Assembly (NCBI RefSeq): GCF_018595675.2
Contig: NZ_CP092333.1
Location: 706,001 to 770,000 of the forward strand
DNA: 64,000 bases
Direction of reading: 5' to 3'
From: Flavihumibacter fluvii
Lineage (GTDB): Bacteria > Bacteroidota > Bacteroidia > Chitinophagales > Chitinophagaceae
The first letter of the stretch is position 1. Each line of letters opens with the position of its first letter. A program made the position numbers and the translations under genes. Shown piece by piece: positions 42,356-52,719 of this stretch. The notes beneath the pieces were generated by a model. It worked only from the letters and a program-made list of their open reading frames with translations. It ran no database searches and was not told the DNA's origin.

Positions 42356-43693
42356 TTAAACACCAAAGGGATAGGTTTCCGGAACCTGGGATCCATCGGG
42401 TGAAATATGAATAGGGTGAAGGGCATGGGTTTCATCCAGGTAAATAAAGGCGTCGTAGCGCAAGGGCAAAATGGTGGGCACATAGTTGCCGTATTGCTCA
42501 TAGGCAGGATTATACACCACGCCAACGGCCCGGTGGCCAATATGGTTTTCCATCAGGGTATCATTACCAATAAAATCCTGCATCAACAGGAGCTTGTTGG
42601 TATTACCGGCTTTGTGCAGGAGGTCTTCCCAGCTGGATGGCCTTGCTTCCGGCAAATGCATGGACTGCATGTCAGCGCCCCATTTCCTGCCGGCCATAAC
42701 CGTTCCGGTGTAGGACCCGAAGCCAACCAGCACAACACCTTTGTCCTGGTGTTTTATCCGCGCTATTTCACCGATGTTGAACATGCCTTCATCAACCATA
42801 TCTGTGGCCCTGGCATCGCCAATATGTGTGTTATGTGCCCATACGATGATCTTCGAATTTTCACCATGAAAATTCAGCAGCCTGTCCAGCGTGTCGGCCA
42901 TGTGCCGGTCACGCACATTCCAGCTGTGGGGGCCGCCCTGGATCATGGTACGGTAGTATTTTTCTGCATTCACGGTGATCAGCGCATTTTGTTCCGTGCT
43001 GAATACATTCTCCACATCAGAATTATAATTAATGGCCTTTTTCTGGATCTCTTTTAAAAGGTGCAATACCTCAGTTTCGCATAATTCCGGCACATACCGG
43101 CTGGCTTCTGCATAGGACCGGCCTTCATCTTTCTGGAAAGGTTCGAAACAGCGGAATGCTTCCTGTGCTAACACTAATGCGGCTTTATCTGTTTTTTCCA
43201 GGTAATGCATAATGCTTTCCATGCTTTCCCAGAGGCTGTATACATCCAGGCCATAGAAGCCGGCTTTTTTATTGGCGGGCCGCCCGGTATTAAACTGTAC
43301 CATCCAGTCCGCCAATGCAACGATTTCCCAGTTGGCCCACATCCAGGTAGGCCACCTGTCGAAAGTTTCCAATACTTTAAAAGCACTTTTATTAGCAGGG
43401 TCAAGCCCTTTTACAAAACGGTTCAGTCGATAGCAATCCGGCCAGTCACCTTCAACAGCAATACAATTGAATCCTTTTTCTTCTATCAGTTTTTTGGAAA
43501 TATGGGCACGCCAGGTATAATACTCATGTGTGCCATGACTAGCTTCACCAAGCATCACGATCCTTGCATCACCAATTTTTTCAAAAAGCGGCTGCAGGTC
43601 TGCTTTACTTTTCAGCGGGTAAGCCCATTGCCTGATGGCACTTATGGTTTCATTCTCATCCAAAGCGGTGGCTTTGGTAAAATAGTGTCCCAT
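42356..43693 (-). CDS. Erythromycin esterase homologue
   Basis: 445 residues from the ATG at 43693. EreA/B-family motifs: ARIVMLGEASHGTHEYYTWRA near residue 50 (catalytic histidine), IAVEGDWPDCYRLN, and IVWAHNTHIGDARATDM. Family members in stress-gene clusters are distinct from the plasmid macrolide esterases, so macrolide resistance should not be assumed. First gene of the minus-strand operon Ere, proline-rich, PEBP, membrane protein, baeRF3, with shared regulatory sites at 43821-43858. Confidence 0.87.
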   Translation of the reverse strand: MGHYFTKATALDENETISAIRQWAYPLKSKADLQPLFEKIGDARIVMLGEASHGTHEYYTWRAHISKKLIEEKGFNCIAVEGDWPDCYRLNRFVKGLDPANKSAFKVLETFDRWPTWMWANWEIVALADWMVQFNTGRPANKKAGFYGLDVYSLWESMESIMHYLEKTDKAALVLAQEAFRCFEPFQKDEGRSYAEASRYVPELCETEVLHLLKEIQKKAINYNSDVENVFSTEQNALITVNAEKYYRTMIQGGPHSWNVRDRHMADTLDRLLNFHGENSKIIVWAHNTHIGDARATDMVDEGMFNIGEIARIKHQDKGVVLVGFGSYTGTVMAGRKWGADMQSMHLPEARPSSWEDLLHKAGNTNKLLLMQDFIGNDTLMENHIGHRAVGVVYNPAYEQYGNYVPTILPLRYDAFIYLDETHALHPIHISPDGSQVPETYPFGV

Positions 43694-43820
43694 AATTAAT
43701 CGTTGATTTATATACGCTCTCCAAAGCAACAATTTTACAGCATCTTATCGCCTGCTTTTCGTCAAGCGGTTTATTGATTCTTATCAGTATATACAAAAGA
43801 TTGATCATACCCGAATTGAG

Positions 43821-43887
43821 TTTGATGACTGTCATTATATGTTGTGATACCAGTCATTGCTGCGGAATCCAGGTAAGCATAATTTTA
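43821..43887. promoter_or_regulatory. Two Crp/Fnr-like palindromes and -7 box in the divergent stress promoter
   Basis: Site A is TTTGA-N6-TCATT (43821-43836), site B TGTGA-N6-TCATT (43843-43858); their centres are 22 bp apart. The -7-like box TAATTTTA (43880-43887) is centred 33 bp from B and 55 bp from A, that is near -41.5 and -63.5 relative to the expected start. This is the geometry of class II and class I Crp activation. A minus-strand box (ATCTTTTG, 43794-43801) at about 31 and 53 bp could serve the erythromycin-esterase-like operon. Confidence 0.65.
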
Positions 43888-43908
43888 TTGGAATAAAATC
43901 TGATTGCG

Positions 43909-44433
43909 ATGACAACAGAACAACAAACGGTGTGTACACTGCATAACCTGCTGGACTATGATGCCAAGAAATTCACCAGTGCTGAGATTTTGCTCCAGCG
44001 CCATTTGCCGGATTGGATCCTGCATGCAGATTCCCTGAAGTTAAAAACGGTATTACAGAAATACCTTGGTTTTGTGGAGCAGCATGTTAAAATGCTGGAG
44101 GGTTTTTTTGAATCGGAGCAGATCAGTTCGATCAGTACCAGTAACCGGGTCATGCAGGCTTTTATTGATGAAGCCGCTGCGAAAATGGCGGTGTGTGCAG
44201 ATGCTGCGATTAAGGATGCCTGCCTGCTGGCTTCCATTCAGGCCATCAATCATTTTAAGATCAGCATGTATGGTACAGCTGCAGCCTTTGCCAAAGCATT
44301 GGGCATGGAAGAGCAGGCTGCCATCTTTTACAAGGCCGAGGTAGAGGAGAAGCAGATCGATGACCGGTTGTCGCAGCTAGCAGAACATGAAGTGAATATT
44401 CACGCTAAAACTCCCGTAGTGTTGCCGGGCTAA
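43909..44433 (+). CDS. DUF892 ferritin-like protein (YciE/YciF type)
   Basis: 174 residues, all helical. Pattern of DUF892: an N-terminal LLDYDAKKFTSAEILLQRHLPDWI, VEQHVKMLEGFFE, KDACLLASIQAINHFKISMYGTAAAFAKALG and EVEEKQIDDRLSQLAE. The spaced Glu/His residues give a potential di-metal site, but the classic YciF carboxylates are only partly kept. YciE/F proteins respond to osmotic and stationary-phase stress. First of a three-gene operon. Confidence 0.78.
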   Translation: MTTEQQTVCTLHNLLDYDAKKFTSAEILLQRHLPDWILHADSLKLKTVLQKYLGFVEQHVKMLEGFFESEQISSISTSNRVMQAFIDEAAAKMAVCADAAIKDACLLASIQAINHFKISMYGTAAAFAKALGMEEQAAIFYKAEVEEKQIDDRLSQLAEHEVNIHAKTPVVLPG

Positions 44434-44444
44434 AAACATCAAGT

Positions 44445-45101
44445 ATGGAATTCAGGGCCTACGAGGAAGTGGAAATACCCAGCGGGAAAGTAACCTTGAA
44501 GGGAGACCTGGTCATTCCCGAAACTGCCCGTGCCATTGTGGTTTTTTCGCATGGCAGTGGAAGCAGCCGGTTCAGTACAAGGAACCAGGCAGTTGCGCGG
44601 TACCTGATCCAAAAAAATTTCGGCACTTTATTGTTCGATTTATTAACGCCGGAAGAAGATGTGCAATACCAAAATCGTTTTGATATAGACCTGCTTACCA
44701 CCAGGCTGGCTGATGCCACCAGGTGGCTCGCTAAACTGCCGGCGGCTAAAGATTGCGCTATCGGCTATTTTGGTGCCAGTACAGGGGCAGCTTCAGCTTT
44801 GAAGGCGGCGGCCCTGATTCCGTCCGTTTGCGCAGTAGTATCCAGGGGTGGCAGGCCCGACCTGGCTGCGGACAGCCTGCCAAAGGTGAAGGCCCCGGTT
44901 TTATTGATCGTGGGCAGCCTGGATGAAGAAGTGATCGTCCTGAACCGCATGGCCTACGAAGAATTGGGTGGTGAAAAAAAACTGGAGATCGTTGCAGGGG
45001 CCACCCATCTTTTTGAAGAGCCGGGAAAATTAGACATTGTTGCCGCGCTGGCGGCGAAATGGTTTGAAAAATATACACAACCTGAGTATGTTCCGGGATA
45101 G
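44445..45101 (+). CDS. Dienelactone-hydrolase-like alpha/beta hydrolase
   Basis: 218 residues. VVFSHGSGSSRFSTRN (oxyanion region), nucleophile elbow IGYFGASTGAASAL (Ser), VLLIVGSLDEEVI (Asp) and GATHLFEEPG (His) complete the triad. Proteins of this type are often neighbours of phosphoribosyltransferases in bacterial stress clusters, as here, where the two genes overlap by 14 bp. Substrate unknown. Confidence 0.87.
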   Translation: MEFRAYEEVEIPSGKVTLKGDLVIPETARAIVVFSHGSGSSRFSTRNQAVARYLIQKNFGTLLFDLLTPEEDVQYQNRFDIDLLTTRLADATRWLAKLPAAKDCAIGYFGASTGAASALKAAALIPSVCAVVSRGGRPDLAADSLPKVKAPVLLIVGSLDEEVIVLNRMAYEELGGEKKLEIVAGATHLFEEPGKLDIVAALAAKWFEKYTQPEYVPG

Positions 45102-45723
45102 AAAAGCTGCCGGCATTGATCTGGCGAAGAAGTTAACTGAATACAGGCATGATCCGGGCATTGTATTAGCAGTACCCCGGGGTGGTGTTCCTGTTGCCTA
45201 TGCGGTGGCGAAGGAACTGGATTTCCCGATGGACCTGGTACTGACCAAAAAGATCGGCCATCCTTTGAACAGGGAATATGCCATTGGGGCCGCCAGCCTT
45301 ACGGATTATTTTGTGGTGCCGCATGATGATGTTTCTGATGAATATATTGAAAAGGAATTACTCAGGGTCAGGACGCGGCTGAAAGAAATGCAGGTTAGGT
45401 TCAGGGGTGACCGGGCGCCGGAAAAGCTGGAAGGCAAAACAGTGATCATCGTAGACGATGGTATTGCAACGGGAAATACTATACTGGGGACAGTCCGGCT
45501 TTTAAAAAAAAGCCATCCGGCCAAGATTATAATTGCGGTGCCTGTGGCATCACGGAGCGCCATTCATAAGTTATCCAAAGAAGCAGATGCAGTTATTTCT
45601 TTACTTGTTCCCACAGAATTCTTTGGTGTGGGGGCATTTTATGAAAATTTTGAGCAGGTAAGTGATGAGGAAGTGGACGAATACCTGGATAAGTTCCGGC
45701 AATGGCGGAAAATGGCGACCTGA
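45088..45723 (+). CDS. Phosphoribosyltransferase-family protein
   Basis: 211 residues from the ATG at 45088, within the end of the hydrolase gene. PRPP-binding loop VIIVDDGIATGNTI and N-terminal LAVPRGGVPVAYAVAKEL define the type I PRTase fold. The group is the one found next to dienelactone hydrolases and erythromycin esterases; no nucleobase specificity can be assigned. Its TGA stop (45721-45723) is also the left half of a regulatory palindrome for the next operon. Confidence 0.88.
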   Translation: MFRDRKAAGIDLAKKLTEYRHDPGIVLAVPRGGVPVAYAVAKELDFPMDLVLTKKIGHPLNREYAIGAASLTDYFVVPHDDVSDEYIEKELLRVRTRLKEMQVRFRGDRAPEKLEGKTVIIVDDGIATGNTILGTVRLLKKSHPAKIIIAVPVASRSAIHKLSKEADAVISLLVPTEFFGVGAFYENFEQVSDEEVDEYLDKFRQWRKMAT

Positions 45724-45785
45724 TGAAAATCATGGTTTTCCATTATACAGGTCAATTCCCCGGTTTTATCCAATCGGTAACTTAG
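45719..45785 (+). promoter_or_regulatory. Crp/Fnr-like palindrome and -7 box upstream of the sHSP-glucan phosphorylase operon
   Basis: CCTGA-N6-TCATG (45719-45734) is centred exactly 55 bp before TAACTTAG (45778-45785, one mismatch to TAnnTTTG). The site overlaps the stop codon of the preceding gene. Confidence 0.5.
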
Positions 45786-45804
45786 TAGTCTAAAATAAAT
45801 ATCC

Positions 45805-46251
45805 ATGGATACTAGCTTGTTTGCCGAAAAAGATTACACGGTTTATCCGGGGGAATATGTTCCCATGCCAGAAACTGAAATGCTGTTTGATGCTTTGCGT
45901 CACGGGGCAGTGCCGGTTATCTCCTCATTACCACTAAATATGGATGAGTATGAGGATTGTTACAAAGTAGAAGTGTCGTTACCTGGTGTGCGGCGCGATG
46001 AAATTTTGATCCAGTTGAATGAAGATCGTTTGTCCATTGCCGTCATGCAAAAAAATGAACAGGTGGGCGACCCCAGGAAGATACAGATGCATGAATTTAT
46101 GCCTGGCCCGGTAGAACGAAAACTGGTTTTGCCTGAAATAGTTGACGTTGAATTTGTAAGTGCATCCTACAGGGAGGGTATCTTGTACATTCACTTGCCC
46201 AAGACATCCACACCATCCGGTTCCAGTAATCATTTGGTAGTGGTATATTAA
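45805..46251 (+). CDS. Small heat-shock (Hsp20/alpha-crystallin) family protein, divergent
   Basis: 148 residues. The alpha-crystallin core runs about 47-135: YKVEVSLPGVRRDEILIQLNEDRLSIAV, then a strand with FMPGPVERKLVLPEIVD and the closing YREGILYIHLPK. It lacks the strict GxLxxxxP seen in typical sHSPs (GILYIHLP is close). Holdase chaperone. It is followed by the glucan phosphorylase after 9 bp, a fixed pair worth noting. Confidence 0.82.
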   Translation: MDTSLFAEKDYTVYPGEYVPMPETEMLFDALRHGAVPVISSLPLNMDEYEDCYKVEVSLPGVRRDEILIQLNEDRLSIAVMQKNEQVGDPRKIQMHEFMPGPVERKLVLPEIVDVEFVSASYREGILYIHLPKTSTPSGSSNHLVVVY

Positions 46252-46260
46252 AGTACGCCA

Positions 46261-47907
46261 ATGCAGATACCTTTTACGTTCCCGTACACAGCAGCTCCGG
46301 CATATCAAAAAAAAGTGGCCTATTTCTGTATGGAATACGGCATTCACCAGCCCCTCAAAATATATGCAGGCGGATTGGGTTTCCTGGCCGGTTCATACCT
46401 GCGGAGCGCGTATGAATTGCAACAGAATATGGTGGGCATCGGCATTTTATGGAAGTATGGGTATTATGATCAGGTAAGGAAACAGGACCAGTCGATGGAT
46501 GTACTGTTTGCAGAAAAAAATTACGGGTTCCTGGAACCAACTGGCATCAAGTTTACGATCAGGGTTTCCCGCCATGATGTTTGGGTTACGGCATTTTACC
46601 TACCACCTGATATCTTCAATACGGCCCCTTTATTTTTACTCAGTACAGACCTGGAAGAGAATGATTACCTCGCCAAAACTATTTCCCATAAATTGTATGA
46701 TTCCAATCCGGAAACAAGGATAGCATCGGCCATCCTTCTCGGGGCCGGCGGCGCGCGGTTGCTGGAGGAATTAGGCTGGGTGCCAGATACCTATCACCTG
46801 AATGAATCGCACGCATTGCCACTGGCTTTTTATTTGTACGCCAAATACAAGAATACCGATGCAATAAAAAAGCAATTGGTCTTTACCAATCACACACCTG
46901 AACCTTCCGGGAACCAGCGTACCAACCTGGGATTCCTCGAAAAAATGGGTTTTTTCTGTGAGGTGCCCCTTACTGAAATTAGCGCCATTGCCGCGGTAGC
47001 GGGGCAGGACCTCGACCATACGGCCACTGCTTTGCGGTTGAGCGGGAAGGCCAACGGGGTTTCTAAAATGCACCATGGAACCTTATCGCGCTTGTGGACA
47101 AAACAGGAAGGTGCCTGTAAGATCGGGTCCATCACCAATGCGCAAAATTTCACCTACTGGCATAATAAGGAAATGTACCGTGCATTACATGACAATGATG
47201 ATCGCGGATTGGTGCAGGAAAAATTGAAAGGGAAGTCGCTGTTGTTTGAAGAGGTAGCCGACCAGAATGGCGAGATCTATGATGAAAGAATTTGTACGAT
47301 CGTTTTTGCCAAGCGGTTTGCCGGCTATAAGCGGGCCGATTTGTTTTTCCAGGATATGGACCGGTTTCATCGCCTGGTCACCAATAAGGAGCGGCCTGTT
47401 CAAATTATCTGGGCGGGAAAACCTTATCCCGTAGATTATGCTGCAATAGGCGTGTTTGATAAGGTGGTTAATATTTGCAAGACCTATACAAATTGTTCGA
47501 TCCTGGTGGGGTATGAATTGAAGCTATCGAAAATATTAAAACAGGGTGCCGATGTGTGGCTGAATGTGCCCCGGTTAACCCATGAGGCATCTGGTACCAG
47601 TGGCATGACCGCGGCTATGAATGGTTCAGTGAATGTTGGACTTCCTGACGGATGGCTTCCTGAATTTGCACGGGATAAAATAAACTCATTTGTAGTGCCA
47701 CCCTGTGATCCTGGACTTCCAGATCATGAACAGGATGACCTGGACGCAGCCAGCCTGTACAAATTGCTGGAAACTGAAGTGCTGCCCATGTTTTATGATT
47801 ATCCCGACCGCTGGCTTGGAATTATGAAAAACAGCATGACAGATATTATTCCGCAATTTGACAGTAACCGGATGGCCCGGGAATATTATGATCAGATATA
47901 TACCTGA
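46261..47907 (+). CDS. GT35 alpha-glucan (glycogen) phosphorylase-like protein with altered PLP site
   Basis: 548 residues, the short bacterial form. MEYGIHQPLKIYAGGLGFLAGSYLRSAYEL, HLNESHALPLAF, FTNHTPEPSGNQ, FAKRFAGYKRADL and IIWAGKPYP follow the family. Glycogen phosphorylases need pyridoxal phosphate bound by the Lys of EASGTSGMK; here the stretch reads EASGTSGMTAAMNG with T450 in that place, confirmed by the codon ACC (47608-47610). So either it does not use PLP or it acts as another kind of GT-B enzyme. The context (stress, glycogen use) fits starvation metabolism. Confidence 0.82.
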   Translation: MQIPFTFPYTAAPAYQKKVAYFCMEYGIHQPLKIYAGGLGFLAGSYLRSAYELQQNMVGIGILWKYGYYDQVRKQDQSMDVLFAEKNYGFLEPTGIKFTIRVSRHDVWVTAFYLPPDIFNTAPLFLLSTDLEENDYLAKTISHKLYDSNPETRIASAILLGAGGARLLEELGWVPDTYHLNESHALPLAFYLYAKYKNTDAIKKQLVFTNHTPEPSGNQRTNLGFLEKMGFFCEVPLTEISAIAAVAGQDLDHTATALRLSGKANGVSKMHHGTLSRLWTKQEGACKIGSITNAQNFTYWHNKEMYRALHDNDDRGLVQEKLKGKSLLFEEVADQNGEIYDERICTIVFAKRFAGYKRADLFFQDMDRFHRLVTNKERPVQIIWAGKPYPVDYAAIGVFDKVVNICKTYTNCSILVGYELKLSKILKQGADVWLNVPRLTHEASGTSGMTAAMNGSVNVGLPDGWLPEFARDKINSFVVPPCDPGLPDHEQDDLDAASLYKLLETEVLPMFYDYPDRWLGIMKNSMTDIIPQFDSNRMAREYYDQIYT

Positions 47908-47924
47908 CCACGTTCAGAGGACAC

Positions 47925-47998
47925 AATGATGATGGTCATTGGTTGTTTTTTTTGGGGTGATTACCTTTATGTGGTAAATAAAAAATTAAAAAAGGAGG
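47925..47998 (+). promoter_or_regulatory. Crp/Fnr-like palindrome, -7 box and strong Shine-Dalgarno of the Hsp20 gene
   Basis: AATGA-N6-TCATT (47925-47940), a perfect palindrome, is centred 33 bp before TACCTTTA (47962-47969). AAGGAGG (47992-47998) lies 5 nt before the ATG at 48004, an unusually strong ribosome-binding site for this phylum. Confidence 0.65.
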
Positions 47999-48003
47999 AT
48001 ATT

Positions 48004-48447
48004 ATGGCAACACAATCAATGGTAAAAAACCCAACCCGGGTGCCATCTGTTTTTAATGATTTTTTTAAGCCCTGGAATGATTGGTTCGATAGTGGGGTAT
48101 GGGGTCGTGAAATGAACCTGCCTGCTGTAAATATTGAAGAACAGAAAGATGATTTCCTGGTTTCACTTGCTGCACCCGGATTAAAAAAAGAAGATTTCAA
48201 CATCAGCCTCGATGGCAATATGCTGACCATCAGTTGTGAAAAAGAGGAGCGTAAGGAAGAGAAAGATAAAAAGTATAACCGGAAAGAATATAACTATTCT
48301 TCCTTCTCGCGCAGCTTTACTTTGCCAGACCAGGTTAACACAGATAAGATCGATGCAAAATATGAGGACGGTTTGTTAAAAGTGGTATTACCTAAAAAGG
48401 AGGAAGCTAAAAAAATGGCTACAAGCAAGCATATTGATGTTAAATAA
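48004..48447 (+). CDS. Small heat-shock protein Hsp20
   Basis: 147 residues from the ATG at 48004, fixed by the adjacent AAGGAGG. Canonical: VPSVFNDFFKPWNDWFD, NIEEQKDDFLVSLAAPGLKKEDFNISLDGNMLTISCEKE, SSFSRSFTLPDQVNTDKIDAKYEDGLLKVVLPKKEE (alpha-crystallin domain about 37-140 with GLLKVVLP). ATP-independent holdase. Monocistronic, with a terminator 22 bp after the stop. Confidence 0.95.
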   Translation: MATQSMVKNPTRVPSVFNDFFKPWNDWFDSGVWGREMNLPAVNIEEQKDDFLVSLAAPGLKKEDFNISLDGNMLTISCEKEERKEEKDKKYNRKEYNYSSFSRSFTLPDQVNTDKIDAKYEDGLLKVVLPKKEEAKKMATSKHIDVK

Positions 48448-48468
48448 TGCGCACCTCAAAACCCTATG

Positions 48469-48497
48469 CCCGCCTTACAAAAAGGCGGGTTTTTTTT
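48469..48497 (+). terminator. Rho-independent terminator of the Hsp20 gene
   Basis: CCCGCCTT (48469-48476) and AAGGCGGG (48482-48489) followed by T8. Confidence 0.92.
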
Positions 48498-48504
48498 GTC
48501 TGGT

Positions 48505-48571
48505 ATTGATAACTGTCATTTTTTACACTGACCATCATTCTTCTCCTGGTGTGCTTGTTATAATATATTTG
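48505..48571 (+). promoter_or_regulatory. Crp/Fnr-like palindrome and -7 box upstream of the coiled-coil gene
   Basis: ATTGA-N6-TCATT (48505-48520) is centred exactly 55 bp before the perfect box TATATTTG (48564-48571). It differs from site A (43821) at only a few positions. Confidence 0.65.
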
Positions 48572-48589
48572 AAGGGATAAAAGTATTGT

Positions 48590-48967
48590 ATGTCAGCTAT
48601 GAAAATAAAGCAGTTGCAATATGAAAGCGAAACCTGGAAGCGACTGCTTCGTTTTATGACAGACGAGAATATTTGCCTTAAAACCAGGGTTTCAGAGGTC
48701 TTGAAAAATGGATTCGACAGGCGATTGTTGGTGCAGATAGAAGATTTTAATTCCCGGTTTATAAAGGAAGATGAGCTCATAGGGTTTTTACGGAACCAGG
48801 TAGCCGAACTGGATAAATTGTTGTTACAGGAATCTTCAGGAGACCTGGAAAGTATACAAAAAGTCGAGAGCCAGTTAAAAAAAATAAGGGGCAATATCCG
48901 TGCAACAGAGAAGCAGTTCGGTAAGTTGAAACTGGAGTTTAATAATTACCTTTTAGCCAATGTATAA
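48590..48967 (+). CDS. Coiled-coil protein of unknown function
   Basis: 125 residues, wholly helical with heptad patterns (FLRNQVAELDKLLLQ, IQKVESQLKKIRGNIRATEKQFGKLKLEF). No signal or TM. Start could also be the ATG at 48599. Its promoter carries the island's regulatory palindrome, so it belongs with the stress genes. It ends 8 bp from the convergent regulator gene. Confidence 0.7.
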   Translation: MSAMKIKQLQYESETWKRLLRFMTDENICLKTRVSEVLKNGFDRRLLVQIEDFNSRFIKEDELIGFLRNQVAELDKLLLQESSGDLESIQKVESQLKKIRGNIRATEKQFGKLKLEFNNYLLANV

Positions 48968-48974
48968 TCGGGCA

Positions 48975-50033
48975 TTAATTGGCCAGTGTTTCCAGCTTTT
49001 TTTGATTAAGGATAATTATCCCGCCTTCCACCATGTCTACCAACTTCTCATTCCTGAAATCGCTTAAGGTTCGGATGAGTGACTCTGTTGCTGTTCCGGC
49101 AATGGTAGCCAGGCTTTCCCGGTTGATATCGATGATGAAATTGTCCTCGCTCGGTTTCCCGAATTTATGTAACATGGTCAGGAGTGCGTCGGCCACTTTC
49201 TTACGTAAGGAATTATAAGCCAGGCTGAGCAGCTGCTTCTCTTTTTCAGATACATTGCTGGCGAGCAGGCGGATGAATTTGTTGGCCACCTCCGGGTTTT
49301 TGTGGATGAGTTCATCAAATTCTTCTTTCGGGATAATCGTCAGTTCGCTGTCTTCCAGCACTTCTGCCGTATCCTTGTAGGGGGTGCCTTCAAGTAAGGC
49401 TACATGCCCCAGGAAATCACCGGAACTATATAGTTCGGTTACTAATCCCTTTCCTTCATCATTGTAACGGCAGGCCTTCACTTTCCCTTTGATCAGGTAG
49501 TACAACCGGTTTGGATGGTTTCCTTCAGAATAAATCAGTTGTTTCTTTTTATACTTATTGACATTGCGGCCTTGTATCAGTTCTTCCAGCGCATTTAACC
49601 CACCACCCGGCTGCAAGGTTGGGTTGGTTCCGGTTATTCCGGATGAAAGCTCCTGTTTCAGCTGCTCATGTTTTTTTAGCCGGCTCTCCACAGCGGTGAG
49701 CAATTCTGCACCTGTAAAAGGTTTTGTGATATAGTCATCCGCACCCAATTCCATGCCTTTCCGGAAATCTGAACGTTCGGTTTTAGCGGTTAAAAAGATG
49801 AATGGCGTATTCTTGATCGCGTCATTTTTTTGGACGGCATGTAATACGCCATAACCGTCGAGTATAGGCATCATGATATCACAAATGATCAGGTCGGGCT
49901 TTTGGTCCAATGCTTTTTGCACCCCGATCTTTCCATCTTCTGCAGTTATTACGGTATAACCGGATAGTTCAAGGATCTCCGCTGTGTTGTCCCGGATGTT
50001 TTCGTTGTCTTCAATCAATAGAATTTTTTTCAT
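48975..50033 (-). CDS. Hybrid response regulator: receiver, cNMP-binding fold and Crp/Fnr HTH
   Basis: 352 residues from the ATG at 50033. Receiver 1-120 (IEDNE, phosphoacceptor D52 in LIICDIMMP, T82, K104). Crp-like beta-barrel about 145-265 (YYLIKGKVKACRYNDEGKGLVTELYSSGDFLGHVALLEGTPY); the cAMP-binding Arg-Ser pair is not evident. Crp-type winged HTH 270-352, whose recognition helix TATESLIRTL keeps E317 and R321, the two residues that read TGA half-sites in Crp and Fnr. Translated 7 bp after its partner kinase. It is the best candidate for the protein that binds TGA-N6-TCA in this island. Confidence 0.92.
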   Translation of the reverse strand: MKKILLIEDNENIRDNTAEILELSGYTVITAEDGKIGVQKALDQKPDLIICDIMMPILDGYGVLHAVQKNDAIKNTPFIFLTAKTERSDFRKGMELGADDYITKPFTGAELLTAVESRLKKHEQLKQELSSGITGTNPTLQPGGGLNALEELIQGRNVNKYKKKQLIYSEGNHPNRLYYLIKGKVKACRYNDEGKGLVTELYSSGDFLGHVALLEGTPYKDTAEVLEDSELTIIPKEEFDELIHKNPEVANKFIRLLASNVSEKEKQLLSLAYNSLRKKVADALLTMLHKFGKPSEDNFIIDINRESLATIAGTATESLIRTLSDFRNEKLVDMVEGGIIILNQKKLETLAN

Positions 50034-50040
50034 GGCGCTT

Positions 50041-52626
50041 TTATTGCGGTTTAAAGGAAATGATGAATTCAGTCCCCTTGTCCAATTCACTGGTACATTC
50101 CACGGTTCCATTCATCAGTTCGGCATATTTGGAAACGATGTGGAGACCCAGTCCGGTTCCCTGGATATTGCCTGCATTAGCACCCCTGAAAAACCGTTCC
50201 ATCAGGTGCTTCTGGTCTTCCTCGGAAATTCCCATGCCGAAATCCCTTACGGCCAGCATGATCTGCTGGTTTTTCTGTGTGGTCCTTATTTCAATAGAAC
50301 TGTTCTCGGGTGAAAACTTGCTGGCATTGGAAATCAGGTTCATGATAATATGCTTGAGTAACGAAGGGTCCAGCGTAACTAACAGGTTGCCTTTATGATC
50401 GTATATGATCTGTTGCCCCTTTTTCAGGTTGTTTTTAATTTCCCTGGTCAGTTTATTCACCAGGTCGCTGATATTAAATTCAACTGGACGAACATGGATT
50501 TTCCCTTCTTCTATCTGGCCCAGGCTCAGGAAGTCCTGCAATATCTCAGTCAGCATATCAACTGAAGACACGATGCGTTGCAGGTGTTTCTGGCGGTTCG
50601 GCTGGTCCTCTGTTGTGGTATATTTTTCAATGAGGTAAGCAGAGGAAAGAACAGTACTGAGTGGTGTACGGAATTCGTGGGAAGCCATGGAAACAAAGCG
50701 GGTCTTCATTTCCCCCAGATCTTTTTCTTTCTGTAGGGTTTCCAACAGGTCCTTTTCCGTTTTTTTACGCAGGGTAATATTTTGGAGGACAACCAGGACC
50801 AGGAGGTCTTCCTTTCCGCCAACATGCACTGGGACCGCGTTGACAGAATACGTCTGCTCCTTCATGTCGATATCAAAAAGCACACTGTCCCCTTTAAGTG
50901 CCCTTAGTAAAAAAGGCCGGGCGTCATGGTTGCTTTTGTCAGAAAGGTGGTCGAATATATTCATCCCAACCAGGCCTTCAGGCGGTATGCCCAGCCTTTT
51001 AATTTCAGCCCCGCCGGCAAAAACATAGTGAAGATTTTTATCTAGCAGTCCAATGATGCCATCCGGGAAATTATTTGCAATTGCATTGAATAGTCTTTGC
51101 TGTTGCTGGAGGGTACTTTTTATTTTTTGTTCTTCCCTGGCCTTGATGATATCAGTGATATCTACACCGATGGCAATGAAGTTTAAAACATTACTGTCTT
51201 TATAAACCGGTGTAATGTCTATGTTTAACCAGATGGGGGTTCCGTCTTTTTTGTTCATTTTAATGGCCGATGAGACGGGTAGCCTTTTCATGAGTATTTT
51301 GCTGATCTCTTTTACCGTCGTTTTATCTGCTTCTATTTCCTGCAGCATTTGTATGGCAGACTTTCCCAGCAATTCTTCTTTTGAATACCCTGTGAGTTTT
51401 TTCACGCTTTCATTCACCCAGATCGTCTTCCCGTTTTTGTCTGCAATGAATACTGCATTATTGGTTTTACTGGCCACCAGTGATAACCTTTCCAATTGCA
51501 GGGCACTTTCTTTCCTTGCAGTAGTGTCCTGGGCAGTGCCCCTTAACCAGGTCGTCTGGGATTTAAGGCGAATCGGTGTGCAGGTGATGGTCAGCCATTT
51601 GTTTTTCTGGCGGCTGGTTATCAGGGGTATTTCAATGGTAAAAGGTTTGCCCTTCTTTATCGTATCATCCAATGCCTGCTGTACTACTGAACGGGTTTTT
51701 TTATCAAGGAACCTTTCCAGCAATTCTGGATAGGAAAGTTTTTGAAATTCTTCTTCGGCAATTTCAAGGATATTATACATCTCGGCTGTACAGGATATTT
51801 TCCTGGTGGCTACATCCATTTCCCAACCGGCCAGGTGGGAAGCCTTTTCCGTATTTTGCAGGAGTTGCTGGAATTTCCTGGTTTCAGAAATGTCCCTCGC
51901 AGTTATTACCAGGTATTTGGTTTGGTCTGCGTTGTTCAGGAGGGTTGCCGTTCGGAATACATTAATCTGCTCACCATTTTTTTTAATGGCTATTCTTTCT
52001 TCATCGATACAATTGCCGGAGAAAAATTCCTGTAATTTTTGCAGGGATTCTTTCCTGTTCCCAGGAGGAATAGTAATAGTATATTTTTTCCCTTCCAGTT
52101 CGCCGTTCTCATAGCCAAACAATTTGTTGTAGCCAGTATTGGTCTTTACGAATCGGTTGTTGTAATCAACAATAGCTATGCCGATATCAGAAGTATGAAA
52201 GATGGAATCGATCAGCTGTTGTGCATTGTCCAGCGCCATCCCGGACATTTTCTCTTCGGTGATATTGCGCAGGGCCAGGGAGATTGCCAGCACATTATCG
52301 TTTCTATCAAGTGCAGGCGAACAATTGATGTTATAATAATAAACCTTTCCATTTACGGCAATGCATTCTATTTCACTGGTGGTGGTTTTTCCTTTCATCG
52401 CCAGGCGCACAGCATCCCCAAAAGGATGTGCTGCTTCATTTTCAGCTGAGCCGGGGAAGGGTTTGCCGATCAATAACGTGGTTCCATATAGCTTTTTAAA
52501 GGTTGGCTGCGCATTAGGATCCATGGCCTGAATATTCCCCCGGGCATCCAGTAATACCATAGCCTGCAGGTCATTACCGGCAGGCAGAAATTTTATGCGG
52601 GAAATTGATTTTATCGAATCGGCCAT
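50041..52626 (-). CDS. Multi-PAS hybrid-free sensor histidine kinase
   Basis: 861 residues, no TM helix, so cytoplasmic. Five PAS-type domains in a row: about 20-130, 135-255, 260-375, 380-500 (SLVASKTNNAVFIADKNGKTIWVNESVKKLTG) and 515-625, some with PAC ends. HisKA at 640-705 (SMASHEFRTPLSTVLSS, H650) and HATPase_c to the end (NLISNASKFSPE, DFGMGISEED, GTGLGLHIVSKYAEL). Partner of the regulator immediately downstream. Ligand unknown; no haem or flavin motif could be confirmed. A perfect hairpin ends 2 nt before its ATG. Confidence 0.92.
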   Translation of the reverse strand: MADSIKSISRIKFLPAGNDLQAMVLLDARGNIQAMDPNAQPTFKKLYGTTLLIGKPFPGSAENEAAHPFGDAVRLAMKGKTTTSEIECIAVNGKVYYYNINCSPALDRNDNVLAISLALRNITEEKMSGMALDNAQQLIDSIFHTSDIGIAIVDYNNRFVKTNTGYNKLFGYENGELEGKKYTITIPPGNRKESLQKLQEFFSGNCIDEERIAIKKNGEQINVFRTATLLNNADQTKYLVITARDISETRKFQQLLQNTEKASHLAGWEMDVATRKISCTAEMYNILEIAEEEFQKLSYPELLERFLDKKTRSVVQQALDDTIKKGKPFTIEIPLITSRQKNKWLTITCTPIRLKSQTTWLRGTAQDTTARKESALQLERLSLVASKTNNAVFIADKNGKTIWVNESVKKLTGYSKEELLGKSAIQMLQEIEADKTTVKEISKILMKRLPVSSAIKMNKKDGTPIWLNIDITPVYKDSNVLNFIAIGVDITDIIKAREEQKIKSTLQQQQRLFNAIANNFPDGIIGLLDKNLHYVFAGGAEIKRLGIPPEGLVGMNIFDHLSDKSNHDARPFLLRALKGDSVLFDIDMKEQTYSVNAVPVHVGGKEDLLVLVVLQNITLRKKTEKDLLETLQKEKDLGEMKTRFVSMASHEFRTPLSTVLSSAYLIEKYTTTEDQPNRQKHLQRIVSSVDMLTEILQDFLSLGQIEEGKIHVRPVEFNISDLVNKLTREIKNNLKKGQQIIYDHKGNLLVTLDPSLLKHIIMNLISNASKFSPENSSIEIRTTQKNQQIMLAVRDFGMGISEEDQKHLMERFFRGANAGNIQGTGLGLHIVSKYAELMNGTVECTSELDKGTEFIISFKPQ

Positions 52627-52628
52627 AG

Positions 52629-52654
52629 CATCATTAAGGTAATCCTTAATGATG
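52629..52654 (-). promoter_or_regulatory. Perfect inverted repeat directly before the histidine kinase ATG
   Basis: CATCATTAAGG (52629-52639) and CCTTAATGATG (52644-52654), 11 bp, 4-nt loop. In the mRNA this hairpin ends two bases before the start codon (52624-52626), so it would cover the ribosome-binding region. It may instead be an operator. Confidence 0.6.
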
Positions 52655-52719
52655 AAATTAACTGTTAGGGTGGTTGAACCGGATGACTACCCTCAACTGT
52701 TCAATTGATTACCGTCATG
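52653..52719 (-). promoter_or_regulatory. Crp/Fnr-like palindrome upstream of the kinase-regulator operon
   Basis: ATTGA-N6-TCATG (plus-strand reading, 52704-52719) is centred 55 bp from TAATTTCA (minus strand, 52653-52660), a weak -7 box. Presence here would make the regulator autoregulatory. Confidence 0.45.

Follow-up and report, generated by a model that had tools for sequence, protein, structure and literature searches.

Six promoters in a window of 64,000 nucleotides from Flavihumibacter fluvii (positions 706001-770000 of the complete 5.0-Mb genome, G000) share one rigid layout. Each carries two FNR-type palindromes (TGA-N6-TCA) whose centres lie exactly 22 base pairs (bp), that is two helix turns, apart, giving twelve sites in total. 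Measured to the centre of a Bacteroidota -7 box downstream, the proximal palindrome is 33 bp away and the distal one 55 bp. The genes behind them are those for an erythromycin-esterase-family protein (Ere), an operon that begins with DUF892, an operon of Hsp20 and an alpha-glucan-family phosphorylase, a further Hsp20 protein, a protein of 125 amino acids (aa) and the operon of a histidine kinase and its response regulator, P0001. P0001 joins a receiver domain to a Crp-type DNA-binding part, and we refer to this type as REC-Crp. The same layout recurs in related bacteria before genes for low-oxygen respiration and stress. In our judgement it is probably read by REC-Crp-type regulators of a wider low-oxygen/stress regulon, of which the island in the window would be the stress arm.

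The sites, boxes and genes are as follows; scores are those of a position weight matrix (PWM) built from other genomes and described below.

43775..43786, minus strand: distal site of the Ere promoter, centre 55 bp upstream of the -7 box, TGATTCTTATCA; promoter PWM score 22.1
43753..43764, minus strand: proximal site of the Ere promoter, centre 33 bp from the -7 box; 5/6 core bases
43722..43729, minus strand: -7-like box of the Ere promoter, TTGCTTTG
42356..43693, minus strand: erythromycin-esterase-family protein (Erythro_esteras, PF05139)
43823..43834, plus strand: distal site of the DUF892 operon promoter, TGATGACTGTCA; PWM 36.9
43845..43856, plus strand: proximal site of the DUF892 operon promoter, TGATACCAGTCA
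43880..43887, plus strand: -7-like box of the DUF892 operon promoter, TAATTTTA
43909..45723, plus strand: probable operon from DUF892 on (genes by Pfam, operon inferred from spacing)
43909-44433, plus strand: DUF892 gene (Pfam)
44445-45101, plus strand: dienelactone-hydrolase-like gene (Pfam)
45082-45723, plus strand: phosphoribosyltransferase-like gene (Pfam)
45721..45732, plus strand: distal site of the Hsp20/phosphorylase operon promoter, TGATGAAAATCA; PWM 31.3
45743..45754, plus strand: proximal site of the Hsp20/phosphorylase operon promoter, TTATACAGGTCA; 5/6 core bases
45778..45785, plus strand: -7-like box of the Hsp20/phosphorylase operon promoter, TAACTTAG
45805..47907, plus strand: probable operon of Hsp20 (45805-46251) and alpha-glucan-family phosphorylase (46261-47907)
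47905..47916, plus strand: distal site of the Hsp20 promoter, newly found, TGACCACGTTCA; PWM 33.0
47927..47938, plus strand: proximal site of the Hsp20 promoter, TGATGATGGTCA
47962..47969, plus strand: -7-like box of the Hsp20 promoter, TACCTTTA
48004..48447, plus strand: Hsp20 protein
48507..48518, plus strand: distal site of the 125-aa protein promoter, TGATAACTGTCA; PWM 33.1
48529..48540, plus strand: weak proximal site of the 125-aa protein promoter, TGACCATCATTC; 4/6 core bases
48564..48571, plus strand: -7 box of the 125-aa protein promoter, TATATTTG
48590..48967, plus strand: 125-aa protein without Pfam or NCBIfam family, recurring near REC-Crp genes
52706..52717, minus strand: distal site of the kinase/regulator operon promoter; PWM 24.9
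52684..52695, minus strand: proximal site of the kinase/regulator operon promoter, newly found
52653..52660, minus strand: -7-like box of the kinase/regulator operon promoter, TAATTTCA
50041..52626, minus strand: multi-PAS histidine kinase (PAS, HisKA, HATPase_c)
48975..50033, minus strand: P0001, REC-cNMP_binding-HTH_Crp_2 response regulator, candidate binder; recognition helix GTATESLIRTLSDF

A preliminary description of this stretch had listed six palindromes, each 33 or 55 bp from a -7 box, and had taken the two distances for alternative promoter classes. The TGA-N6-TCA cores are indeed present at all six places (43823, 43845, 45721, 47927, 48507 and 52706) and the centre distances to the named boxes are correct, but only half of the layout had been caught, as every promoter in the window has both sites. 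We therefore rejected a split into class I and class II promoters, also because 22-bp pairs dominate over all other spacings. The Ere promoter was absent from the earlier list; its sites at 43775 (6/6 core bases) and 43753 (5/6) are oriented towards the Ere gene, and the -7-like box lies at the predicted position. The density of single sites, previously offered as an argument, is raised only mildly (27 TGA-N6-TCA in the window versus 17.4 expected, a count reached by 3 of 100 window shuffles), and as sole evidence we discarded it. The spacing is far more telling. Exact sites less than 60 bp apart form three 22-bp pairs (43823 + 43845, 47905 + 47927 and 52684 + 52706) and one pair at 48 bp, and random placement of 27 sites gave three or more 22-bp pairs in none of 20,000 trials. 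The remaining sites have weaker partners at 22 bp, at 45743 and 48529.

The whole genome holds 21 exact 22-bp pairs, compared with none for a reversed-pattern control, and 48 pairs with at most one mismatch, compared with five for the pattern read backwards. When the gap was left free (TGAT-led pairs, gaps 1-31, counted by eye), 14 of 27 distinct places had the 22-bp spacing and 13 were scattered over other gaps. The position of the box is equally constrained: a box matching 4/6 bases or more lies at gap 23 in 20 of the 21 exact pairs, whereas other gaps show such a box in 2.4 pairs on average and in no more than 6. Beyond this genome, 147 genomes of the family contain 784 exact pairs and 19 matches to the reversed control (pairs summed by script, controls counted by eye), with at least one pair in 123 of the 147. 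Across the phylum, an exact pair occurred in 152 of 395 genomes and a reversed-control match in 32 of 395 (by eye). Five or more pairs per genome occurred in the own family and, within the same class, in coded families f2, f3, f8, f9 and f10; such counts were also met once in f5 and, outside the class, in f47. The remaining genomes of the phylum mostly had 0-3 exact pairs.

The same geometry emerged around the genes of the putative regulators. In 80 loci surrounding REC-Crp homologues (53-72% identity), spacings of 12-45 bp were scanned, and 84 exact pairs fell at 22 bp and no more than six at any other spacing; 60 loci around other Crp-type genes gave 17 exact pairs at 22 bp and at most two elsewhere. 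Around the 81 exact pairs with enough flank, read in both orientations, exact TAnnTTTG occurred 40 times at gap 23 (a centre distance of 33 bp); among the other gaps from 5 to 54, none had it more than twice.

We then scored the window with a PWM trained on 142 promoters from the 80 REC-Crp loci, with all sequence of the own genome excluded; a promoter entered the training set if its pair scored 11/12 or more and its box 5/6 or more. In the resulting profile the distal site is A-rich in the middle, the proximal site is followed by a T, and the -7 box by an A-rich stretch. The six highest-scoring places in the window were its six promoters: 43823 (36.9 bits), 48507 (33.1), 47905 (33.0), 45721 (31.3), 52684 on the minus strand (24.9) and 43753 on the minus strand (22.1). 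Next came three of the six window pairs read on the opposite strand (17.4, 12.0 and 3.5), and the next independent place scored 0.7. The best score in 20 random sequences, generated as first-order Markov chains with the dinucleotide frequencies of the window rather than as shuffles, was 9.4, and that of the reversed window 7.6. This ranking speaks against chance, and the matrix recovered all the operons that had earlier been assigned to a Crp-type regulon with fixed promoter geometry.

Which genes lie behind the pairs? Elsewhere in the genome, the genes preceded by exact pairs include ccoI, ccoNO and those for two baeRF-family-3 proteins, for PNPOx-like, PolX-like and DoxX-like proteins, for a sulfatase, for a bestrophin-like protein and a Crp-type regulator, and for a GH63-like protein, whose pair has no good -7 box. 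The regulon had been described as dedicated to the island; the layout before ccoNO, ccoI and the other non-island genes points instead to a wide regulon. The observation made earlier is right and stronger than claimed, and its interpretation is right in kind but too narrow. We assessed conservation in the 80 REC-Crp loci by leaving out one locus at a time and requiring a promoter score above 20 bits. The layout preceded 24 of 25 copies of ccoNO, which encodes the cbb3 oxidase (the exception is an oxidase match of 29% identity), 4/4 copies of DUF892, 2/2 of baeRF, 13/19 of the Hsp20 of the 48004 type and 15/27 scored copies of the 125-aa protein, whereas the background rate was 50 of 723 other open reading frames of the same loci. 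Conservation of the layout in other genera was found for ccoNO, DUF892, Hsp20 (48004 type) and the 125-aa protein, the last being an uncharacterised regulon member. For the dienelactone-hydrolase-like and phosphoribosyltransferase-like genes, the layout was seen before 0/1 copies each. A one-mismatch pair stands in front of a GCV_H-like gene of the own genome. Divergent from that gene is a Crp-type gene (L129:3282-4477) with the helix GTAREHVVRVL, and 7 of 16 loci of its relatives have a promoter-like place near the same gene.

P0001 matches PF00072, PF00027 and PF13545 above cut-off and so belongs to the CRP/FNR superfamily, with a receiver domain in addition. Residues E317 and R321 of its recognition helix, which had been numbered correctly, are invariant in 23 of 23 aligned proteins; FNR-type DNA recognition, here of the TGA half site, is marked by Glu and Arg where the helix contacts the bases. 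A paralogue in the same genome (2765091-2766137), divergent from ccoI, with ccoNO next, has a recognition helix identical to that of P0001, and GTATESLIRTLSDF is exact in 44 of the 80 homologue loci. A further group of Crp proteins lacks the receiver domain (13 loci, L177-L189). It has GTATE in 12 loci and exactly GTATESTIRLLSEF in seven, and a promoter-like place lies within 1.5 kb in 12 of the 13, including L177, whose helix differs.

The number of pairs also follows the presence of these proteins. Of the 147 family genomes, the 108 in which a REC-Crp was found at E 1e-60 have a mean of 6.8 exact pairs and the other 39 a mean of 1.2, and zero pairs were found in 3 of the 108 and in 21 of the 39 (Mann-Whitney p 2e-13 for pair count versus presence, not corrected for relatedness). 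Where REC-Crp is lacking, the eight genomes with the GTATE form average 3.25 pairs compared with 0.71 in the 17 with neither (p 0.009). Locus L176, a fragment, was left out of the locus and co-occurrence counts, and genome G093 out of the helix-form comparison, there being no locus for its helix. The earlier link between the layout and the kinase/REC-Crp operon, including the notion that the regulator's own operon has a site, thus gains support from co-occurrence and from the pair at 52706 + 52684 before that operon. The likely binders are P0001, its paralogue and the REC-less relative with nearly the same helix, as matching helices, local enrichment and co-occurrence suggest.

E. coli FNR has four cluster-binding cysteines, whereas P0001 has two cysteines in the whole protein, of which only C51 in the receiver is invariant among the 23 aligned, and so it lacks the cysteine set of an FNR-type Fe-S oxygen sensor. 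The cAMP-contacting residues of the phosphate-binding cassette of CRP are GE...RS; the matching stretch of P0001 reads GHVALLEGTPYKDTAE (by eye). In a PDB sequence search with P0001, the best stretch of each of the best 60 of 291 matches was the receiver or the Crp part, never both, and among the best 25 of 97 NCBIfam matches of P0001 and of 105 of the paralogue, no model reached its cut-off. The protein does have the marks of a two-component response regulator, namely a receiver, the phospho-acceptor Asp (Asp52, kept in 80 of 80 REC-Crp homologues) and a kinase as neighbour. In 75 of the 80 loci, the REC-Crp start is immediately preceded on the same strand by the end of a gene of 120 codons or more; no such gene was found in L010, L017, L025, L045 and L054. 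All 75 of these genes encode histidine kinases, 70 with a PAS_9 match. A loose PAS motif (H..x...Y/H/F...P..R.M/LG.G), taken as a possible FixL-like haem signature, occurs in 31 of the 75 adjacent kinases; inspection by eye revealed none in the kinase of the window.

We propose that the pair would be read as one unit by two side-by-side Crp-type dimers with a recognition helix of the kind GTATE-S/T-x-IR, supplied by P0001, by its paralogue next to the cbb3 genes and, in certain relatives, by the REC-less form. The PAS histidine kinase of the operon that encodes P0001 would phosphorylate the receiver domain, and the phosphorylated regulator would fill both sites and activate transcription. The proximal dimer would extend over the -33 region, in a class II-like manner, and the distal dimer would take a class I position. 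The signal would most likely be oxygen limitation or linked redox stress, because the layout precedes cbb3 oxidase genes in other genera. The island would then form the stress arm of the wider low-oxygen/stress regulon and feed back on the operon of its own kinase and regulator. Phosphorylation-driven binding, double occupancy and the oxygen signal are what we infer from the domain make-up, the geometry and the cbb3 targets.

A number of observations weigh against this proposal. The core columns of the PWM are partly imposed by the selection of training sequences for pair and box. The proximal sites at 45743 and 48529 are degenerate, and the exact pair at 1671640, one of the 21 in the genome, has no good -7 box. 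The REC-Crp gene itself has the layout in 0 of 82 cases, and only 20 of 71 scored upstream kinases have a pair promoter of their own, even though the matrix included their loci, so that autoregulation is not general. The layout is found before only 8 of 14 copies of ccoI, 3 of 6 of the PNPOx-like gene and 4 of 20 of the small protein L128x. For the Hsp20-phosphorylase operon (Hsp20 of the 45805 type), just one copy was scored (1/1, in L010, 34 bits), and the 80 loci contain no Ere match, leaving the conservation of that promoter unscored there. Two genomes of the same genus (G008 and G108) have a single REC-Crp each, 54 and 53% identical to P0001; proteins of 71-72% identity occur elsewhere in the family, which may reflect loss or horizontal transfer of the P0001 lineage. 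Three genomes have a REC-Crp and no exact pair, and those with neither helix form still average 0.71 pairs, more than the ~0.13 of the reversed control. Finally, promoter-like places within 1.5 kb were found at 45 of 80 REC-Crp loci and 12 of 13 REC-less GTATE loci, and also at 17 of 30 crp429-type and 7 of 16 crp3399-type loci; per Mb, the REC-less group had 303, REC-Crp 228 and the others 169 and 118. Pairs beside other Crp-type genes could mean that other Crp proteins bind them, or that those genes are targets.

Taken further, these last counts lead to the alternative that survives best, though we regard it as unlikely: the twin sites might be bound by another Crp/FNR protein, of the crp429 type (helix GLRVETVIRTI) or the crp3399 type, with the REC-Crp genes as mere targets or neighbours. 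Including the two REC-Crp, seven Crp-type proteins of the own genome exceed the family cut-off. The helix of crp429 (VETVIR) is FNR-like, and its gene has a pair upstream. Yet it is REC-Crp presence that the pair counts track and, in genomes lacking it, the REC-less form with nearly the same helix. Moreover, crp429-type matches at E 1e-20 occur in only 36 of 98 family genomes, compared with pairs in 123 of 147, and at least one of these matches is itself a REC-Crp (G014).

Somewhat less probable again is repression, in which the regulator would cover the -33 region as a roadblock and silence the genes until a signal removes it. The proximal site does overlap the presumed place of a -33 element. 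However, the profile has no TTTG there and shows only a preference for T behind the proximal site. The rigid placement with respect to the -7 box, at about -40 and -62, moreover matches that of activator sites in CRP/FNR promoters.

That the sites are alternatives, class II at 33 bp or class I at 55 bp, with the second a fortuitous half-match, is very improbable: it would accommodate the degenerate second sites at 45743 and 48529, but not the predominance of the 22-bp spacing in the REC-Crp loci, nor the excess of family pairs over the reversed control, and in the profile, itself selected for pairs, the information content of the two sites is about the same. Chance or compositional bias, to which the mild enrichment of single sites might point, is practically eliminated by the spacing, box-position, cross-genome and PWM controls.

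The layout read by REC-Crp-type regulators invites comparison with known systems. The FNR, ANR and FixK regulons of Proteobacteria use TTGAT-N4-ATCAA and have cbb3 oxidase and stress targets. The system described here shares with them the FNR-like TGA half site, the Glu and Arg in the recognition helix and the cbb3 oxidase and small heat-shock targets, but differs in having two sites at a rigid 22-bp spacing and a Bacteroidota -7 box. Unlike FNR, its regulator has a receiver domain and too few cysteines for an FNR-type Fe-S set. In the class III (multi-site) CRP-dependent promoters of E. coli, spacings vary from promoter to promoter. As in those, one dimer would occupy the class II position and another would bind upstream; in contrast to them, one spacing and one -7 distance recur genome-wide and across genera. 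The FixL-FixJ-FixK cascade of rhizobia likewise combines a PAS kinase, a receiver domain, Crp/FNR-type DNA binding and cbb3 oxidase output, but here the receiver and Crp-type DNA-binding parts are in one protein, so that the FixJ and FixK steps appear fused.

We give even odds to a more general formulation, namely that in Bacteroidota of this group the functional operator is no single palindrome but an obligate pair, exactly 22 bp apart and at a constant distance from the -7 box, to which an FNR substitute under phosphorylation control binds as a dimer of dimers. With its receiver, Crp-type DNA-binding part and own PAS kinase, this one fused protein would take the roles of both FixJ and FixK in the control of cbb3 respiration, chaperones and energy-store genes. 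To our knowledge, a two-dimer operator with constant genome-wide geometry is unusual for CRP/FNR promoters. The signature is specific enough to list the probable low-oxygen/stress regulon of many environmental Bacteroidota from DNA alone, and it names candidates for both regulator and kinase. In addition, synergy between class I and class II sites can be put to the test in a phylum whose core promoter differs. No description of the layout was found among the open-access titles and abstract openings covered or in passages of PMC8510549, in which 'tandem' and 'palindrom' do not occur; this does not imply absence from print.

Some minor observations concern further genes of the own genome. Two small proteins, L128:4218-4622, which has no Pfam match, and L125:3579-4061, which has no NCBIfam match, are related, with 34% identity over 110 residues; relatives of the former were scored in 20 of the 80 REC-Crp loci, and four have a pair promoter. 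Locus L116 (genome 1607500-1627400) encodes a 745-aa protein with weak, below-cut-off decahaem-cytochrome matches, and several pair promoters lie there among genes for OmpA-like, DcaP-like and DUF4136 proteins.

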